A stretch of 43,045 nucleotides of DNA. Source: Candidatus Mediterraneibacter intestinigallinarum. GTDB taxonomy: Bacteria; Bacillota; Clostridia; Lachnospirales; Lachnospiraceae. Where the stretch lies: NCBI GenBank assembly GCA_019119265.1, contig DWXI01000105.1:1-43045 (forward strand). The letters run 5' to 3'. Below, piece by piece: positions 9,599-41,915 of this stretch; position 1 is the stretch's first letter, and each line of letters starts with the position of its first letter. Position numbers and translations under genes: made by a program. The notes beneath the pieces were generated by a model. The model saw only the letters and a program-made list of their open reading frames with translations, ran no database searches and was not told the DNA's origin.

Positions 9599-9609
9599 CC
9601 CCCCCCCCC
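9599..9609 (-). repeat. Homopolymeric G run (11 G) at the capsule promoter
   Basis: The plus strand shows eleven consecutive C, read as G on the operon strand, at roughly -45 to -55 relative to the predicted start. Such runs are prone to slipped-strand length change. No other homopolymer of this length was noticed in the window. Confidence 0.85.
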
Positions 9610-34439: not shown

Positions 34440-34495
34440 AAAAATTCTTTCGAATACAAACCATTTGCACACTGACGATTTATTGAGGATACACT

Positions 34496-35587
34496 ATGAG
34501 AGATCAAAAGGATTCAATATATAAAATACTCCGGCTTGCCAGCTCTGTAGATCCGGCGCTTTTCGGCGCGCTTCTGATCATCCGCCATGTGTCACCCGGA
34601 TTCATCCCAACATACAGGCAGCTGACGTTAGAAGATATGCAAGATTCCCGAATACCAGAGAATGATTGCGACTGTACTCCTTGGCAGATTGTCGCTGATG
34701 CCCCAAAGGGCAAGGTGATATCTTCTGCTATAGCAGCTCTTTCTGCCATCCGTTCCCACAGCCCATTGTTTGACTGCCTGACGGAAAAGCTAAAATACGC
34801 TCCACCGACCGAAACCAATGAATTAATAGATCTAATCCATATCCTGTCGCATATTTCAACCGGAAATCACGCACTTGCCGAAATATATGAAGTTTTTTTG
34901 TCTTCATGGTTTCCGTCAGACACACAACTGCACGCCGCAAAATCCTCAGGCGATATCTATACACCCCGCGATGTTTCCACCCTTATTTGGGAACTTTTGG
35001 ATTTAAACGGAAAAACTTTCTACGATCCCTGCTGCGGGAGCGGTTCCCTTCTGGCCCGCGCCTTTTTATCCCTGCCTCTAAAAAAAGAGGTACGGTTATT
35101 CGGACAGACAAACGATCTTCTTTCATACTGTATCTGTCAGACTTACTTTTTCCTTCTGGACATTCCTGTTGATTTAGCCGGCATGTCCGGTAACACTCTT
35201 GTCAAAGATTTGCATGCCGAAAAGCAGTTTGACCGTATCGCGACGAATCCGCCCTTTAATCAGGCCCGCTGGTGCGATAGCGGCTACATTTATGACAGGC
35301 GCTGGCAGTATGGCATTCCGCCTCGTTCCAACGCAAACTTTGCATGGCTCCAGCATGTCATCAGCCATCTTTCAGATCAGGGCAGAGCCGCCGTCATCTT
35401 GTCAAACGGCTCTTTAAGCGCTCAGAATCATGCAGAACATGAAATACGACGCAGGATTCTGGACGATGGTTTAATCGAAGCAATCATCGCCCTGCCTCCA
35501 AAATTGTTTTTTAATACAAAAGTTCCCTGTTGTATCTGGCTTCTGCGAAAGCCTAAGGTACCGGGGGGCCCCCATCCTCATGATTGA
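34496..35587 (+). CDS. N6-adenine DNA methylase (HsdM-like), truncated by frameshift
   Basis: This 363-aa protein has a helical N-terminal half and a gamma-class adenine methylase core. SAM motif I is FYDPCCGSGSLLAR near residue 180 and catalytic motif IV is IATNPPFNQARW near 248. SGDIYTPRDVSTLIWELL precedes it, as in HsdM. The frame ends in an unlikely tail (KPKVPGGPHPHD) directly after a G6C5 run. Removing one base there continues as GGPILMIDARYAGFSD, the normal HsdM sequence, into the next ORF. The intact gene would encode about 680 aa, a methylase fused to a specificity domain. GAGG precedes the ATG. Confidence 0.88.
   Translation: MRDQKDSIYKILRLASSVDPALFGALLIIRHVSPGFIPTYRQLTLEDMQDSRIPENDCDCTPWQIVADAPKGKVISSAIAALSAIRSHSPLFDCLTEKLKYAPPTETNELIDLIHILSHISTGNHALAEIYEVFLSSWFPSDTQLHAAKSSGDIYTPRDVSTLIWELLDLNGKTFYDPCCGSGSLLARAFLSLPLKKEVRLFGQTNDLLSYCICQTYFFLLDIPVDLAGMSGNTLVKDLHAEKQFDRIATNPPFNQARWCDSGYIYDRRWQYGIPPRSNANFAWLQHVISHLSDQGRAAVILSNGSLSAQNHAEHEIRRRILDDGLIEAIIALPPKLFFNTKVPCCIWLLRKPKVPGGPHPHD
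35563..35573 (+). repeat. G6C5 run at the methylase frameshift
   Basis: GGGGGGCCCCC lies exactly where the methylase frame is lost. One base fewer restores a continuous reading frame through 36533. It could be a phase-variable switch, a recent mutation or a sequencing error. Confidence 0.8.
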
Positions 35588-36533
35588 CGCCAGATATGCC
35601 GGATTTTCAGATAAGAACGGAATTTCGCCCAAAACTGGTCCCAAACTGGTCGACACTGTTCTGAGACATCGAAGCGGAGCGCTTGAGGGGAAATGCAGCT
35701 GGTATGCCGTAGTTTCTCCGAACGACATCGCACGGGAACACTATATACTCAGTCCGAATCTTTACACAAAGCCCGTTTCGATTTCACCGGCCTCTCTGAT
35801 AATCCACCGCCCGGCTTTTCTAAAGCTGATTGACAAATTGAGTACGTTTCCAGAATGTCGCCCAATTTTACCCTGCATCCAGCTATGGAGGCATGCTAAA
35901 TACTCATCACACTGGAAAAATTTTCTTTGGACGGATCTATATCAAGTCTCCGGCGGACTGGCAAAAAAGAGAGAATTTTTCGGACACGGTGTTCCCATGG
36001 CGGATGTAAAAACTGTAATCCGCCATACCTTTCTTCCCGACGCTCTGTCTTCTTCCGTTGAACTTTCAGAAGCAGAGTTTGAAAAATATCGTATCAAAGC
36101 CGGAGATATCCTGATCAACAGAACGAGTGAAACCATTGCAGAACTTGCCTGCTGTTGTATCGCAGCACATGATTACAATGCAGTCTATGGCGGTTATCTG
36201 AAACGACTCCGCCCGCTGCCCGACTCACCGGTCTCCCCTTTTTATATGGCCGCCTATCTCAACAGCCATATTTACCGGCTGGAAGTCGAAAACAACATTC
36301 CCGCCTGCACGACCAGAGCAAACATCAGCACAGAAAGACTTTCACGGATACATATTTATTATCCCGAATCAGACATGCAGAAAATACTCGGAGATACCAT
36401 ATTCTCTGTCAGACAATTTCAGAAAGAGTGTCAGGATTCCAGATTATCCGACCTGTTGAACCGGTTTATTCGGCTGTTGATTGAACAGTTTATCACATAT
36501 CCCATACTTCAGACACAGCAAAAGGAGGAATAA
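35580..36533 (+). CDS. Methylase C-terminus plus HsdS-like target-recognition domain (frameshifted half)
   Basis: This 317-aa frame overlaps the methylase stop (ATGATTGA), so coupled translation is possible, with the G run acting as a poor ribosome binding site. Residues 1-65 continue the HsdM C-terminus (MIDARYAG, YILSPNLYT). From about residue 110 it reads as one HsdS half. LYQVSGGLAKKREFFGHGVPMADV is followed by YRIKAGDILINRTSET and then a long C-terminal helix after PESDMQKILGD. A single recognition domain fused to a methylase recalls type IIG/ISP-like and other M-S fusion systems. Target sequence unknown. Confidence 0.8.
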   Translation: MIDARYAGFSDKNGISPKTGPKLVDTVLRHRSGALEGKCSWYAVVSPNDIAREHYILSPNLYTKPVSISPASLIIHRPAFLKLIDKLSTFPECRPILPCIQLWRHAKYSSHWKNFLWTDLYQVSGGLAKKREFFGHGVPMADVKTVIRHTFLPDALSSSVELSEAEFEKYRIKAGDILINRTSETIAELACCCIAAHDYNAVYGGYLKRLRPLPDSPVSPFYMAAYLNSHIYRLEVENNIPACTTRANISTERLSRIHIYYPESDMQKILGDTIFSVRQFQKECQDSRLSDLLNRFIRLLIEQFITYPILQTQQKEE

Positions 36534-36536
36534 AAG

Positions 36537-37424
36537 ATGACGCAACGAGACCAGAAATGGCTGGTATTGCTTTATTGCCTCGCCGAACTCAGAGGCGGCG
36601 CACAGCGCAATCTTGTATTACAGCACATACAAGATCAGGGTTACTGGTACAAAAACGACCAGAATGATACCTATCGCACCACACGCAGGGAAAGTGTATG
36701 GAGAAATGATTTTTCTTATGAGCGCCAGCATTTGGTAGAGGAAGGCTACATGAAAAGCGGAATTCCCGGCAGATGGGAAATAACGCAAACGGGCAGGGCG
36801 CTCCTTGCCCGTCTGATAAACAAGGCGCTAAACCGGCCTGCAGATGAAAATCTCTGCTATACCCCTGTATTCTTCCAAGAATTAATACAGGAGCAGGAAG
36901 ATGATCAATATCCAACGAGCGGACAGCCCGGATCCAATGCGAATGCAACTCCCGGGAATACAGCCCGGCCGAATGTTCCGAAGCCTCCAATGTCGAACAA
37001 GCCTCGGGCTCCAAGATCACCTTCTATATCATCTTCCGGCAAGCGTATTTACCCGCGCTCCGCAGCTGTTTCCCTGAACGCTCTCAATCTGGCCGGAAAT
37101 GTATGCGCTGTCAATCCGGATCACCCCTCTTTTCTCCGAAGAGACCGGAGTGCTATGTATATGGAGCCCCATCACCTGATTCCAATGTCTCTGACAGATT
37201 ATTTTAATGTCGATCTGGACAGGGAACAGAATATATTTTCTCTGTGCAGTAATTGTCATAATCGAATACATTACGGAACAAAGGAAGATGTAAAAATCTT
37301 GATCACCAAACTTTTCTCATCCAGAGAAGATGATATCTGCTCTATTCTCGGGAAAAAAATCACCATAGACGAACTCTGCCGAATCTATGACACGATGGCA
37401 AAGAAAAAACGCCATAGGCACTGA
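36537..37424 (+). CDS. HNH endonuclease with N-terminal winged-helix domain
   Basis: This 295-aa protein starts three bases after the specificity half. Residues 1-100 look like a Mrr_N-type winged helix (WRNDFSYERQHLVEEGYM, GRWEITQTGRALL). A proline- and serine-rich linker spans about 120-170. The C-terminal HNH nuclease has MEPHHLIPMS, NIFSLCSNCHNRIHYG and an upstream cysteine in NVCAVNPDH that may complete a zinc site. It is the obvious restriction partner of the methylase, and the winged helix may help bind DNA. No HsdR-type translocase is encoded next to it. Confidence 0.88.
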   Translation: MTQRDQKWLVLLYCLAELRGGAQRNLVLQHIQDQGYWYKNDQNDTYRTTRRESVWRNDFSYERQHLVEEGYMKSGIPGRWEITQTGRALLARLINKALNRPADENLCYTPVFFQELIQEQEDDQYPTSGQPGSNANATPGNTARPNVPKPPMSNKPRAPRSPSISSSGKRIYPRSAAVSLNALNLAGNVCAVNPDHPSFLRRDRSAMYMEPHHLIPMSLTDYFNVDLDREQNIFSLCSNCHNRIHYGTKEDVKILITKLFSSREDDICSILGKKITIDELCRIYDTMAKKKRHRH

Positions 37425-37449
37425 GTGATATACAATACAACAGTTACAG

Positions 37450-37492
37450 AAAAGCTCCGCCTGCATCTTAAATCTCTGCAGACGGAGCTTTC
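37450..37492. terminator. Bidirectional terminator between the HNH and aldolase genes
   Basis: AAAAGCTCCG and CGGAGCTTT, extended by CTGCA/TGCAG, form a strong stem between the convergent genes. A T-containing tail follows (TTTCCGCTTATTTT on plus, AAAGC with TTTTC on minus). Confidence 0.8.
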
Positions 37493-38204: not shown

Positions 38205-38974
38205 CTAATCCTGAAAATATCTTTTTATATCGTACGGTGAATAGATTCCCTTGTTGGTGACAATTCCATTACACAAATATGGGGGTGTAATATCAAATGC
38301 CGGGTACCATCCTTTTACCCCTTCCTTAGCCGTGCGTACCCCCATTGCCTCAAGCACCTGATTTCCATCTCTGTATTCAATTTTAACAGAATCTATCGTC
38401 GGATGCTTTTCATCCGGTGCTCCCGTAACATAATAAGGGATTCCGTAATGTTTGCAGACAATTGCAATCTGCAGGGTTCCCACTTTATTCACAATATGCC
38501 CGTCACAGGATATTGCATCCGCTGCTGACGTAAACACATCTACCAGTCCGTTCTGCATTGCAAATGCCGGCATATTATCTGTAATAACCGTTACGTCAAA
38601 CCCCTGATCATAAGCTACGCTGGCTGTCAGTCGGGCTCCCTGAAAATACGGTCTTGTTTCCGCACAGACAACTTTCATATCCTTTCCGCGTTCCCTGATT
38701 TCCTTTAACATAAGTCCTACAATTGTTTCACCGAAACACTGTGTCATAACAGACCCTTTGTCCGGGAATAGATCAACCAGGTATTTTGCCGTCTTCCCAA
38801 TCCGGATATACTTATTATTAACTTCTTCTACGGAGTGTTCAAAAACAGCCTTGTCTGCCGGTTTGCCTTCTGCAAGCGCTTCTTTCGCGGTATCTATACA
38901 TTTCTGTGTGATTGCTTCCATTCGCACAGTAGTCGTCGGACGCGCATGTGATAATGTATAGGAAGCTCCGTATC
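38205..38974 (-). pseudogene. MtnA-like 5-deoxyribose/methylthioribose-1-phosphate isomerase, N-terminus deleted
   Basis: From about SHARPTTTVRMEAIT onward the frame reads as the C-terminal two thirds of an MtnA/aIF2B-alpha-type isomerase. The pieces are QCFGETIVG, CAETRPYFQGARLTA, FTSAADAISCDGHIVNKVGT and YVTGAPDEKHPT. The first 37 residues of the track ORF are unrelated, because they are the antisense of a DeoR gene. About 100 N-terminal residues are missing. Translation could begin at the ATG at 38921, but the product would lack part of the substrate site. Confidence 0.8.
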
Positions 38975-39367
38975 TGTATTCTGTGCGACTCCGCCAAAAA
39001 CAGCAAGATAACCCTCGTATGTGCAGGCGGACAGCTCCGGGCAAAAACCAGTTCTTTTGTAGGGTACAGGACAACCGACATGATCAGCAGTAATTTTGCC
39101 AATATAGCTTTCCTCAGCAATCCTGCCGTCAACATAACATACGGTTTGACCGACAACAACCTGAACGAGGCAAACGTTCGGAAATGTATGCTGGAACACT
39201 CCAAACAGCACATCTTCCTGATGGATCATACAAAATTTTCAAAAACAAGCAGCAATATATTCGGACAGCTTTCCGATATAGATGTACTGATCACAGACAA
39301 AAAACTGAGCAGAGACTGGGAAACATCACTCAGGACAAAAGGAGTGGCGTTTCATTATACAGCATGA
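38960..39367 (+). pseudogene. DeoR-family regulator, N-terminal DNA-binding part deleted
   Basis: The frame (track start 38948) matches the C-terminal sugar-phosphate-sensing domain of DeoR repressors. Evidence is LVCAGGQLRAKTSSFVGY, the GLTDNNLNEANVRKCML segment, and IFLMDHTKFSKTS with DIDVLITD. The helix-turn-helix and the start of the sensor domain are absent. The break coincides with the break in the MtnA-like gene on the other strand. One deletion therefore removed the divergent promoter region and both 5' ends. Confidence 0.82.
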
Positions 39368-39417
39368 AGTAATACTGCCAGTAAATATGTCATCATAATC
39401 ATAACAGGGAGGCAATT

Positions 39418-40701
39418 ATGTTCTTTTTCTTCGAAGATCTCTACTATACTAACGAGGATATCTGCCAGGCTTTTAAAAAAATATGTCTTGATAAGATGCT
39501 TGCTGACGGCTATTTTGACATGAGCACTTACATTTTCGGGCGTATCAGAAAAGAGGATATGTACGCCAGCCTGACCGCCCACAGATCAAAATACGCAGCC
39601 CTCTATCGCGGCGCCTACCCCAAAAAGGATACCATCGCCTCCGAATGGAAACAACGGCTTGCAAACACTGAACAGCAGGATGGACCAGATCAGACCGAAC
39701 TCACCTATGAAGAATCCGGCGCAATTGTAAACTGGATATACAGAGCATTAAAAAATTCCCAGGAAAGGGAGAAATTTACTGAATATATCTTTAAATCCTT
39801 AAAAGACTTACATCACATCCAGAATAATATCCGTTTCTCAAAAGGAGTCGTTTACAATGCCGCTAAAGTAAATCTTCATTTTCTTTCTTCTGTTTCAGGA
39901 GTCAACACTTTTCTTTCAACTCTGAAAAAGAAAGGAAACACTCTGTTTTTCCGCGGGCACGCAGATGCCAATTATATTCTGCGGCCTTCCATCATGCGTT
40001 CGACTCAACTCATGCAGAATGAAAGCCGTTTATATCACGAACTGCTGATCAACTGTCCTGAAGACTTCGAAAAATGCCATACGCACCTGGAGAAACTTGT
40101 TAAAATGCAACACTATGGTCTTCCCACACGGCTGCTCGACATCACCCGGAACCCGCTTGTAGCCCTGTACTTTGCCTGTGAAAGCCGCCCTGAGTCTTAC
40201 GGGGAACTGATCTTGATCTCTGCGGAAAATCATGAAATCAAATACCCGCAAAGCGATACCGTATCTGTTCTAGCAAGCCTTCCTGTGTTTTCTTATGAAA
40301 AGCAGCAGGAATTCTTAACACTGGCCCTTACTCCGGGCATATCCTCCCGGGAGTTCAATAAAAAGGCTGCCCGACTGATCCATGAAGTCCGCCTGGAAAA
40401 GCCGGCTTTCCAGGCGGAAGTAAACAGCGCTGATATTCTGAATAATTATATCGTTTATGCTCTAAAGAATAATAATAGAATCATAAAACAAGACGGCGCA
40501 TTTATTCTCTGCGGACTTTCCGCGGAAGCCGACTCTCTGGATCAATTCCGCTATAAAGAGCGCGGCAGAAAAACCGTCGTACTTATAGAGAAGAAAAAAA
40601 GAATCCTGGAACAGTTAGAAACTTTTTCGATCAACAGAGCATCTCTGTTTCCCGAAATAGAATGTGTCGCTGAATATCTGAAGAATAAGTTTGACCGGTA
40701 G
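39418..40701 (+). CDS. FRG-domain protein
   Basis: This 427-aa cytoplasmic protein contains an FRG domain (about residues 165-290) with the name-giving LFFRGHADANYILRPSIMR and the downstream MQHYGLPTRLLDITRNPLVALYFAC. The first 160 residues are charged and helical and match nothing I recognise. The C-terminal third has an aromatic and basic pattern (RYKERGRKTVVLIEKKKRIL). The biochemical role of FRG domains is not established to my knowledge. They occur often in accessory and defence-type regions. GGGAGG lies six bases before the ATG. Its neighbours are broken metabolic genes, a restriction-modification cluster and a toxin gene. Confidence 0.87.
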   Translation: MFFFFEDLYYTNEDICQAFKKICLDKMLADGYFDMSTYIFGRIRKEDMYASLTAHRSKYAALYRGAYPKKDTIASEWKQRLANTEQQDGPDQTELTYEESGAIVNWIYRALKNSQEREKFTEYIFKSLKDLHHIQNNIRFSKGVVYNAAKVNLHFLSSVSGVNTFLSTLKKKGNTLFFRGHADANYILRPSIMRSTQLMQNESRLYHELLINCPEDFEKCHTHLEKLVKMQHYGLPTRLLDITRNPLVALYFACESRPESYGELILISAENHEIKYPQSDTVSVLASLPVFSYEKQQEFLTLALTPGISSREFNKKAARLIHEVRLEKPAFQAEVNSADILNNYIVYALKNNNRIIKQDGAFILCGLSAEADSLDQFRYKERGRKTVVLIEKKKRILEQLETFSINRASLFPEIECVAEYLKNKFDR

Positions 40702-40729
40702 ACATTACCTATAATATATTTGTTCTTCC

Positions 40730-41200
40730 TTATTGTCTTGAACATTTTTCGGCATCAATCGCCAGTGTAAACATCAGCACATGCAGTGCATCTCCCGGAT
40801 TCACGATATCCAGTACATAGGTATCTGTCATATGAAAAAGCTCCTTCGATATGACCGCTAGCGTTCTCCCTGCGCCATCCGTAATGGAATAATTCCATTC
40901 CGTCCAGTCTCCTTCAATATGCCATCCGTTAAAATCAATATCATAGCGCGGCTTCAGGAAAGTAAGCTCTTTGCTGATAGAGCCGATCCTCTGCTCCCCT
41001 TCATACACCTCGAACTTCGGAAGAAACGTAAGCACTCGTTCCTTCACCATTCCCAGTTCCCGGTCACGGGAATCAAATATCTTGAGGCAATGTCCCCATG
41101 ACAGCTGCCCTTTTACCACATAAACCGTATTTTCATATTCATCATAAATGTCATAGCTGTCCAGCCATGAAAAAAATCTCTGTTTAAATAGTAATTTCAT
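40730..41200 (-). CDS. LURP-one-related (YxjI-type) protein
   Basis: I use the ATG at 41200, with AGAGGAG six bases upstream, giving 156 aa. The 41 extra track residues come from overlap with the truncated gene upstream. The protein has the beta-barrel pattern of the LOR/scramblase-like family: a start MKLLFKQRFFSW, then YVVKGQLSWGHCLKIFD, and paired strands ending in LAVISKELFHMTDTYVLDI. The molecular function is unknown; a tubby-like membrane-lipid or ligand-binding barrel is the usual proposal. Nothing in the context narrows it. Confidence 0.72.
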   Translation of the reverse strand: MKLLFKQRFFSWLDSYDIYDEYENTVYVVKGQLSWGHCLKIFDSRDRELGMVKERVLTFLPKFEVYEGEQRIGSISKELTFLKPRYDIDFNGWHIEGDWTEWNYSITDGAGRTLAVISKELFHMTDTYVLDIVNPGDALHVLMFTLAIDAEKCSRQ

Positions 41201-41261
41201 GCACTTCTCCTCTCTGATATAAAACTGCCACATCCACTTCTCCAAAACTTCTGCAGGGAAC

Positions 41262-41915
41262 TCATAGCAGCATTTCCACCAGTTCTCTGTGCACACATGA
41301 CATATCTGCCTGATAAATATCAATACAGTTCAATAGCGCACCACCTTTTGCATATGACGGAAAAATGAATCCGCACTCCGGACTTCCCGCCTTGTAATCC
41401 CCGGTAACCGGACAAACCGCGCAGATCAGATATTCGAACATCTCCTCCGACTCTCCCAGCCTGACATGATCCGCTGCCTTGGACGGAATATCATACCGGT
41501 CATGAAACATAAAGATGCCGTACTCATGATCTGAACGATATCTCTCCCCTGTCTTCTCATAAAAAATCTCAAGCAGTGCATCGTTCTCCAGGCCCGAACT
41601 TCGGATTCCCATCAGGAGCTGATACATGCTCTCCTTGCCTCTGGAGTTTTCTGGAATCACATAACGCTTCAGATTGCCATTCGTCTGCGCAAAGGGAATC
41701 GACTTTGCAATCTCCAGATTTTTCGCCCGGTCCGATCCTGACAGCTTAAGGAATCGGGTGTTGAATGTTCCGTCAATAAATCCGTCCGGATCCATATATG
41801 CCCCTGCGATCCGAGTCACAGAAGTCCGCTTCACTGTCATGCGGCGGGTAATGGCAAGCATATCCTCACGGTCAATCTGAAGAGACCGCAAAGAGGTGTT
41901 ATATTCTGTGTTCAT
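41262..41915 (-). pseudogene. DUF4317-family gene, C-terminally truncated
   Basis: The 217-aa frame matches the N-terminal half of DUF4317 proteins, which are usually near 400 aa. It starts with IDREDMLAITRRMTVKRTSVTRIAGAYMD and includes SSGLENDALLEIFYEKT. It stops at ELVEMLL, where the family continues. A short stretch in another frame (YEFPAEVLEKW) may be residual sequence, so a frameshift followed by a deletion is likely. The start has AAGGAGAAAG upstream. It may still yield a truncated protein. Confidence 0.6.

Follow-up and report, generated by a model that had tools for sequence, protein, structure and literature searches.

The 43,045-bp window analysed here, which is a whole contig, contains a compact cassette that we read, with confidence a little better than even, as a Type II-like restriction–modification (R-M) unit in which slippage by one base has recently disrupted the methylase. 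The break falls within an HsdM-type N6-adenine methylase frame (ORF1), which is continued in another frame by ORF2 and followed by the gene for a winged-helix–HNH (wH-HNH) nuclease. If intact, the first two frames would encode a single methylase–specificity (M~S) chain, and the system as a whole would be of Type II-like design; its dimeric state, target and mode of cleavage are predicted from the analysis below, which also identified an unbroken relative.

Table 1. Positions of the cassette and its component features in the window
Feature	Position	Strand	Basis or comment
Cassette holding all three ORFs	34441..37450	+	blastn of window against G004
ORF1: helical N-terminal domain, then the greater part of the N6-adenine methylase domain; final ~6 codons out of frame	34496..35587	+	PF02384, E 1.8e-63
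SAM-binding motif DPCCGSG	35024..35044	+	Translation; kept in homologue
Catalytic motif NPPF of gamma-class N6-adenine methylases	35246..35257	+	Translation; kept in homologue
G6C5 run GGGGGGCCCCC, point of frame break; +1 shift needed to continue	35563..35573	+	
ORF2: end of methylase domain, one recognition domain, C-terminal helix	35580..36533	+	Frame open from 35475
Single target-recognition domain (HsdS type)	35916..36407	+	PADLOC Specificity_I over ORF2 residues 113-276; alignment to homologue
wH-HNH nuclease gene	36537..37424	+	PF14338 Mrr_N 33.5 bits, PF01844 HNH 22.7 bits, both above cut-off
Mrr_N winged-helix domain, nuclease residues 11-91	36567..36809	+	Pfam
HNH core, nuclease residues 206-245, MEPHH...LCSNCHN..HYG	37152..37271	+	Pfam, McrA similarity

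ORF1 codes for 363 amino acids and contains the motifs of gamma-class adenine methylases, the SAM-binding motif preceding the catalytic one. As the original prediction had noted, the frame ends in a nonsense tail directly after the run GGGGGGCCCCC, about six residues (GPHPHD) being out of frame. The further claim that one base fewer would restore the methylase and lead straight into a single HsdS-type domain was also borne out. Against ORF1 alone, the Pfam N6_Mtase profile matched over positions 3-234 of 311 (215 bits), whereas against the chain obtained by reading over one base of the run it matched over positions 3-306 (233 bits). This +1 read-through chain of ~679 residues joins ORF1, without a gap, to the methylase remainder, the HsdS-type domain and a C-terminal helix. 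The split between ORF1 and ORF2 (317 residues, from a first ATG at 35580 to a stop ending at 36533) thus falls within the methylase domain and not between M and S. PADLOC Specificity_I models matched ORF2 with E values down to 6e-18; Pfam Methylase_S stayed below threshold in the window (18.6 versus 22 bits), but exceeded it in the homologue (38.7 bits). The cassette has one target-recognition domain (TRD) in all. AlphaFold2 models made from two-sequence alignments were too poor to use (mean pLDDT 44.6 for the nuclease and 35.0 for the read-through chain).

The opening of the second frame and the end of ORF1 confine the frame break to positions 35475-35587, and homology places it on the G6C5 run. 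Runs of at least five G or C make up 119 of the 43,045 bases of the contig (0.3%), and the break sits on its only G run of six; GGGGGGCCCCC itself occurs once in the window, against 0.01 copies expected from dinucleotide-preserving shuffles. That the break falls on so rare a run points to homopolymer slippage, whether biological or technical, as its cause. The gap-free alignment favours the gain of one base, although the loss of two also fits if loop length varies.

The nuclease gene begins three bases past the M~S stop, carries its own strong ribosome-binding site (AGGAGG) and encodes a protein of 295 residues. The expectation that an HNH nuclease with a winged helix would follow the methylase was confirmed, with both the Mrr_N and HNH matches over their cut-offs. 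The HNH domain is similar in sequence to that of EcoKMcrA (PDB 6ghc; E 3e-8), PADLOC mREase_IV matches the nuclease, and the combination of HNH and Mrr_N domains resembles Type IV enzymes. A winged helix of the DpnI type gave no Pfam match in the nuclease at E 1 or less; Mrr_N was found instead.

Comparison with G004, the closest genome of the same genus, provided good evidence that the three ORFs form one unit that was acquired horizontally (unless the relative has lost it). By blastn, window position 34440 meets L124:4411 and position 37451 meets L124:4425, such that flanks separated by 3.0 kb in the window lie 13 bp apart in G004. This empty site has on one side the stop of the M18 aminopeptidase gene and on the other the aldolase gene, facing it with its terminator side, and the cassette is likewise flanked by genes for the M18 peptidase and a class II aldolase. 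The aminopeptidases of the two genomes are 93% identical, and the flanks 87% identical in DNA. Such a clean empty site indicates that the three ORFs are one cassette. It measures ~3.0 kb, contains just these ORFs, without HsdR or an ATP-dependent translocase, and is similar in G+C content to the contig (46.5% and 47.2%, respectively).

The DNA to the right of the cassette contains further disrupted genes. An mtnA-like (IF-2B family) gene at 38205-39074 is truncated: its homology with G004 stops at 38966, whereas this intact relative codes for 345 amino acids. The DNA past this point (38967-40725) holds an FRG-domain gene (39418-40701) that PADLOC scored as a PDC-S15 defence candidate (E 1e-85). 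There is thus a second defence-like insertion at a distance of at most 2 kb from the R-M cassette. A DUF4317 gene (41262-41915), which covers profile positions 3-159 of 370 and abuts a LURP-one-related gene (40730-41323), also looks truncated.

The original prediction had called for a search for homologues with a continuous M~S frame next to an HNH gene. Among 391 genomes of the class we found one full-length relative, in an Oscillospiraceae MAG (WRAG01000011.1; L021/L054), in which methylase and recognition domain lie in one continuous M~S frame of 563 codons, beside a gene for the same kind of nuclease (288 residues) that overlaps the M~S end by 4 bp. This continuity led us to reject the idea that homologues always carry the same split. 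The two systems share their two-gene order; the read-through chain is 36% identical to the homologous M~S protein, with no gap at the break (WLLRKPKVPGAPILMIDAR in the window versus WILSRKKARKGNILFIDAR in the homologue), and the nucleases share 38% identity from end to end, which includes the winged helix. Homology to ORF1 stops at residue 235 of the homologue, and the second frame aligns through the residues after it (IL-IDAR). The methylase and single TRD are therefore on one polypeptide in the homologue; in the source genome this would hold only if the break is bypassed or erroneous. The homologous system differs in its continuous frame, in the absence of a G/C run from the DNA of the M~S junction, in a shorter N-terminus and in having a serine recombinase as neighbour. 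We rejected loss of the HsdM N-terminal domain from the homologue by frameshift, as there is no trace of it upstream and a good ribosome-binding site stands at the start of the gene. The neighbouring gene (L054:7187-8797) encodes a large serine recombinase with Resolvase/Recombinase domains, and a gene for a TraG/TrwB-like coupling protein lies ~2 kb away on the other side of the homologous cassette; together they suggest that the latter is mobile.

The pairing of an M~S protein with an Mrr_N-HNH nuclease appears from these searches to be rare: it was seen in two genomes only, in samples taken at the ranks of genus, family, order, class and phylum. No other fetched locus had the winged-helix half of the nuclease, and its confinement to these two loci indicates that M~S and wH-HNH nuclease go together in both genomes. 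Its HNH module, on the other hand, is widely shuffled: an McrA-like module of ~130 amino acids is C-terminal in many unrelated Clostridia proteins with varied N-terminal domains (L055:1507-3264, L058, L166:1231-2019). The one scan of genome contigs, which used narrow peptide patterns, returned the known homologue alone. Relatives of the system were found neither in viral contigs (four scans) nor in phages, and matches in the plasmid search were to the HNH module alone or to ordinary HsdM. A more distant methylase with a TRD (L093) was left out of the comparison.

The domains, the frame break, the intact homologue and the empty site were observed directly, and are consistent with the following model. 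In the intact system, a single M~S chain would combine a gamma-class N6-adenine methylase with one recognition domain and a helix for dimerisation. In line with what has been proposed for M.DrdI and M.XcmI, two of these chains may form a head-to-head pair that binds an interrupted palindrome and modifies one adenine in each strand, and the wH-HNH protein from the gene directly downstream would cut unmethylated sites. Slippage in G6C5, by gain of one base or loss of two, at what is likely to be the turn joining two strands late in the methylase fold, would then cause ORF1 to end after six wrong residues and cut the recognition domain off from the catalytic domain. Methylation in the sequenced genome is thus probably off or very low. 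As neither frame shows other damage and the nuclease is intact, the change must be recent or else confined to part of the population. One point against the model is that a single homologous system was found, at 36-38% identity, and the two may differ in target or mechanism.

A difficulty for this model is the nuclease. The danger foreseen in the original prediction presumes an enzyme that acts independently and that methylation blocks; for such an enzyme, loss of the methylase should harm the cell, yet the nuclease frame is intact and has its own ribosome-binding site. There are three ways out: the break may be erroneous or unfixed, the nuclease may require M~S, or its cutting may be limited to methylated DNA. 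An assembly or sequencing error in G6C5, leaving the real gene continuous and active, seems to us unlikely without being far-fetched. The genome is a draft (258 contigs, 88.5% complete), the break coincides exactly with a pair of G/C homopolymers, its surroundings are intact throughout and the related system is continuous. However, the coding DNA flanking the cassette has no net frame-breaking indels relative to G004 at 87% identity, a sign that the local assembly is sound, and homopolymers elsewhere in ORF1 (T7 and A7) are in frame. Alternatively, reversible slippage in G6C5 could let cells turn the methylase on or off. The proposal that the specificity is phase-variable in this way survives as a possible but weakly supported one, which we consider improbable. 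Both frames are fully open either side of the break, G/C homopolymers within methylase genes are a known type of switch, and in one meningococcal gene a C5/C6 tract varied between strains (PMC5084427). Yet G6 and C5 fall short of the usual threshold, since a survey of phase-variable genes used a cut-off of 9 or more for poly-G/C, G7 being known in one gene (PMC5953494); the run is absent from the homologue; and a cell that switched its methylase off while the nuclease next to it stayed intact would pay a price, unless M~S is required for cutting. Moreover, long G/C tracts in this genome are mostly intergenic, four of the six places with runs of at least 8 lying in no ORF of at least 90 aa. A C11 run at 9599-9609 lies between two minus-strand ORFs, and similar G/C runs of 11 outside ORFs occur elsewhere in the genome (C176, C245); these intergenic runs are possible promoter-spacing switches.

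The broken state would be harmless if the nuclease depended either on 6mA or on M~S. For the former, the nuclease would be a modification-dependent, Type IV-like reader of 6mA, and the adenine methylase beside it would be tolerated only in its broken form. Enzymes of the wH-HNH type, of 224-283 aa, that cut only 6mA DNA are known, and frameshifted adenine or cytosine methylases occur beside some methyl-dependent PD-(D/E)XK-wH nucleases (PMC11037411); the Type IV-like features found by PADLOC and in the comparison with EcoKMcrA point the same way. We nevertheless doubt this explanation, as both genes are intact in the homologue and overlap there by 4 bp, as expected of a partner pair, and as the winged helix belongs to Mrr_N and not to the DpnI type. 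For the latter, a nuclease with no target of its own might cut only when recruited by M~S or when reading its 6mA, and slippage would then silence modification and restriction together, as a safe on/off switch; we regard this as very improbable. Finally, translation might rescue the methylase, either by a +1 slip at CCC-C or by restart at the ATG at 35580, which overlaps the end of ORF1 by 8 bases next to its TGA stop (ATGATTGA), giving a low level of M~S or two pieces that reassemble. The direction does fit +1 slippage at GGC CCC CAT, and in E. coli slippage at CCC-C can reach about 1% where a start codon is adjacent (PMC4519876). But the slip site has no stop, 35580 is not preceded by a standard ribosome-binding site and the homologue lacks any such arrangement, and no stable RNA structure was found downstream (z = +1.5). 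Lacking a stimulatory structure, a programmed frameshift was judged unlikely, and rescue by either route has in our view a very slight chance of being correct. Our preferred reading is still a Type II-like R-M cassette with a recently broken methylase.

A genuine break would make the locus a natural experiment on how a genome tolerates an intact restriction nuclease when the methylase next to it is disabled; an assembly error would leave simply an uncharacterised Type II-like R-M system. The locus also adds a small family, of which two members were found, in which a fused one-TRD methylase is paired with a winged-helix HNH nuclease; the design, a compact R-M cassette, is of a known kind.

We excluded Type I R-M as a class for the cassette, which has no HsdR and a single TRD in place of the two of HsdS. 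The likeness of the nuclease to EcoKMcrA lies in the sequence of the HNH domain; the N-terminal domain is a different one, and reading of modified cytosine belongs to EcoKMcrA, the comparison here extending to HNH sequence only. SruGXI and HspR68I, which are 6mA-dependent (PMC11037411), are of similar size and also join a winged helix to HNH, but the helix in our nuclease is Mrr_N. Furthermore, most of the winged-helix fusion nucleases in that study have no methylase next to them, whereas the cassette's nuclease gene adjoins one and that of the homologue overlaps one. AhdI, a Type IIH ('Type 1 1/2') system with 2M+2S composition, similarly combines an HsdM-type methylase and a single-TRD half-S with a separate nuclease (PMC4081073, PMC2878638); its M and S are separate subunits, whereas they are fused in the homologue and in the read-through chain. 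Among the closest parallels are M.DrdI, M.XcmI and M.XmnI, in which one chain likewise runs from an N6-adenine methylase through one Type I-like recognition domain to a C-terminal helix, the nuclease is a separate protein and a translocase is absent. They differ in that the cassette's nuclease is of the wH-HNH type and its methylase frame is broken in the source genome. All three are listed with this M~S organisation (PMC3874165, Table 3), and in most Type II systems with bipartite sites modification is likely to be carried out by homodimeric M~S gamma-methylases that have one recognition domain and act on interrupted palindromes (PMC3874165). The combination of M~S with a separate nuclease and no translocase, which had been called unusual, is thus the usual organisation of bipartite palindromic Type II systems, and the absence of a translocase from the cassette is to be expected.
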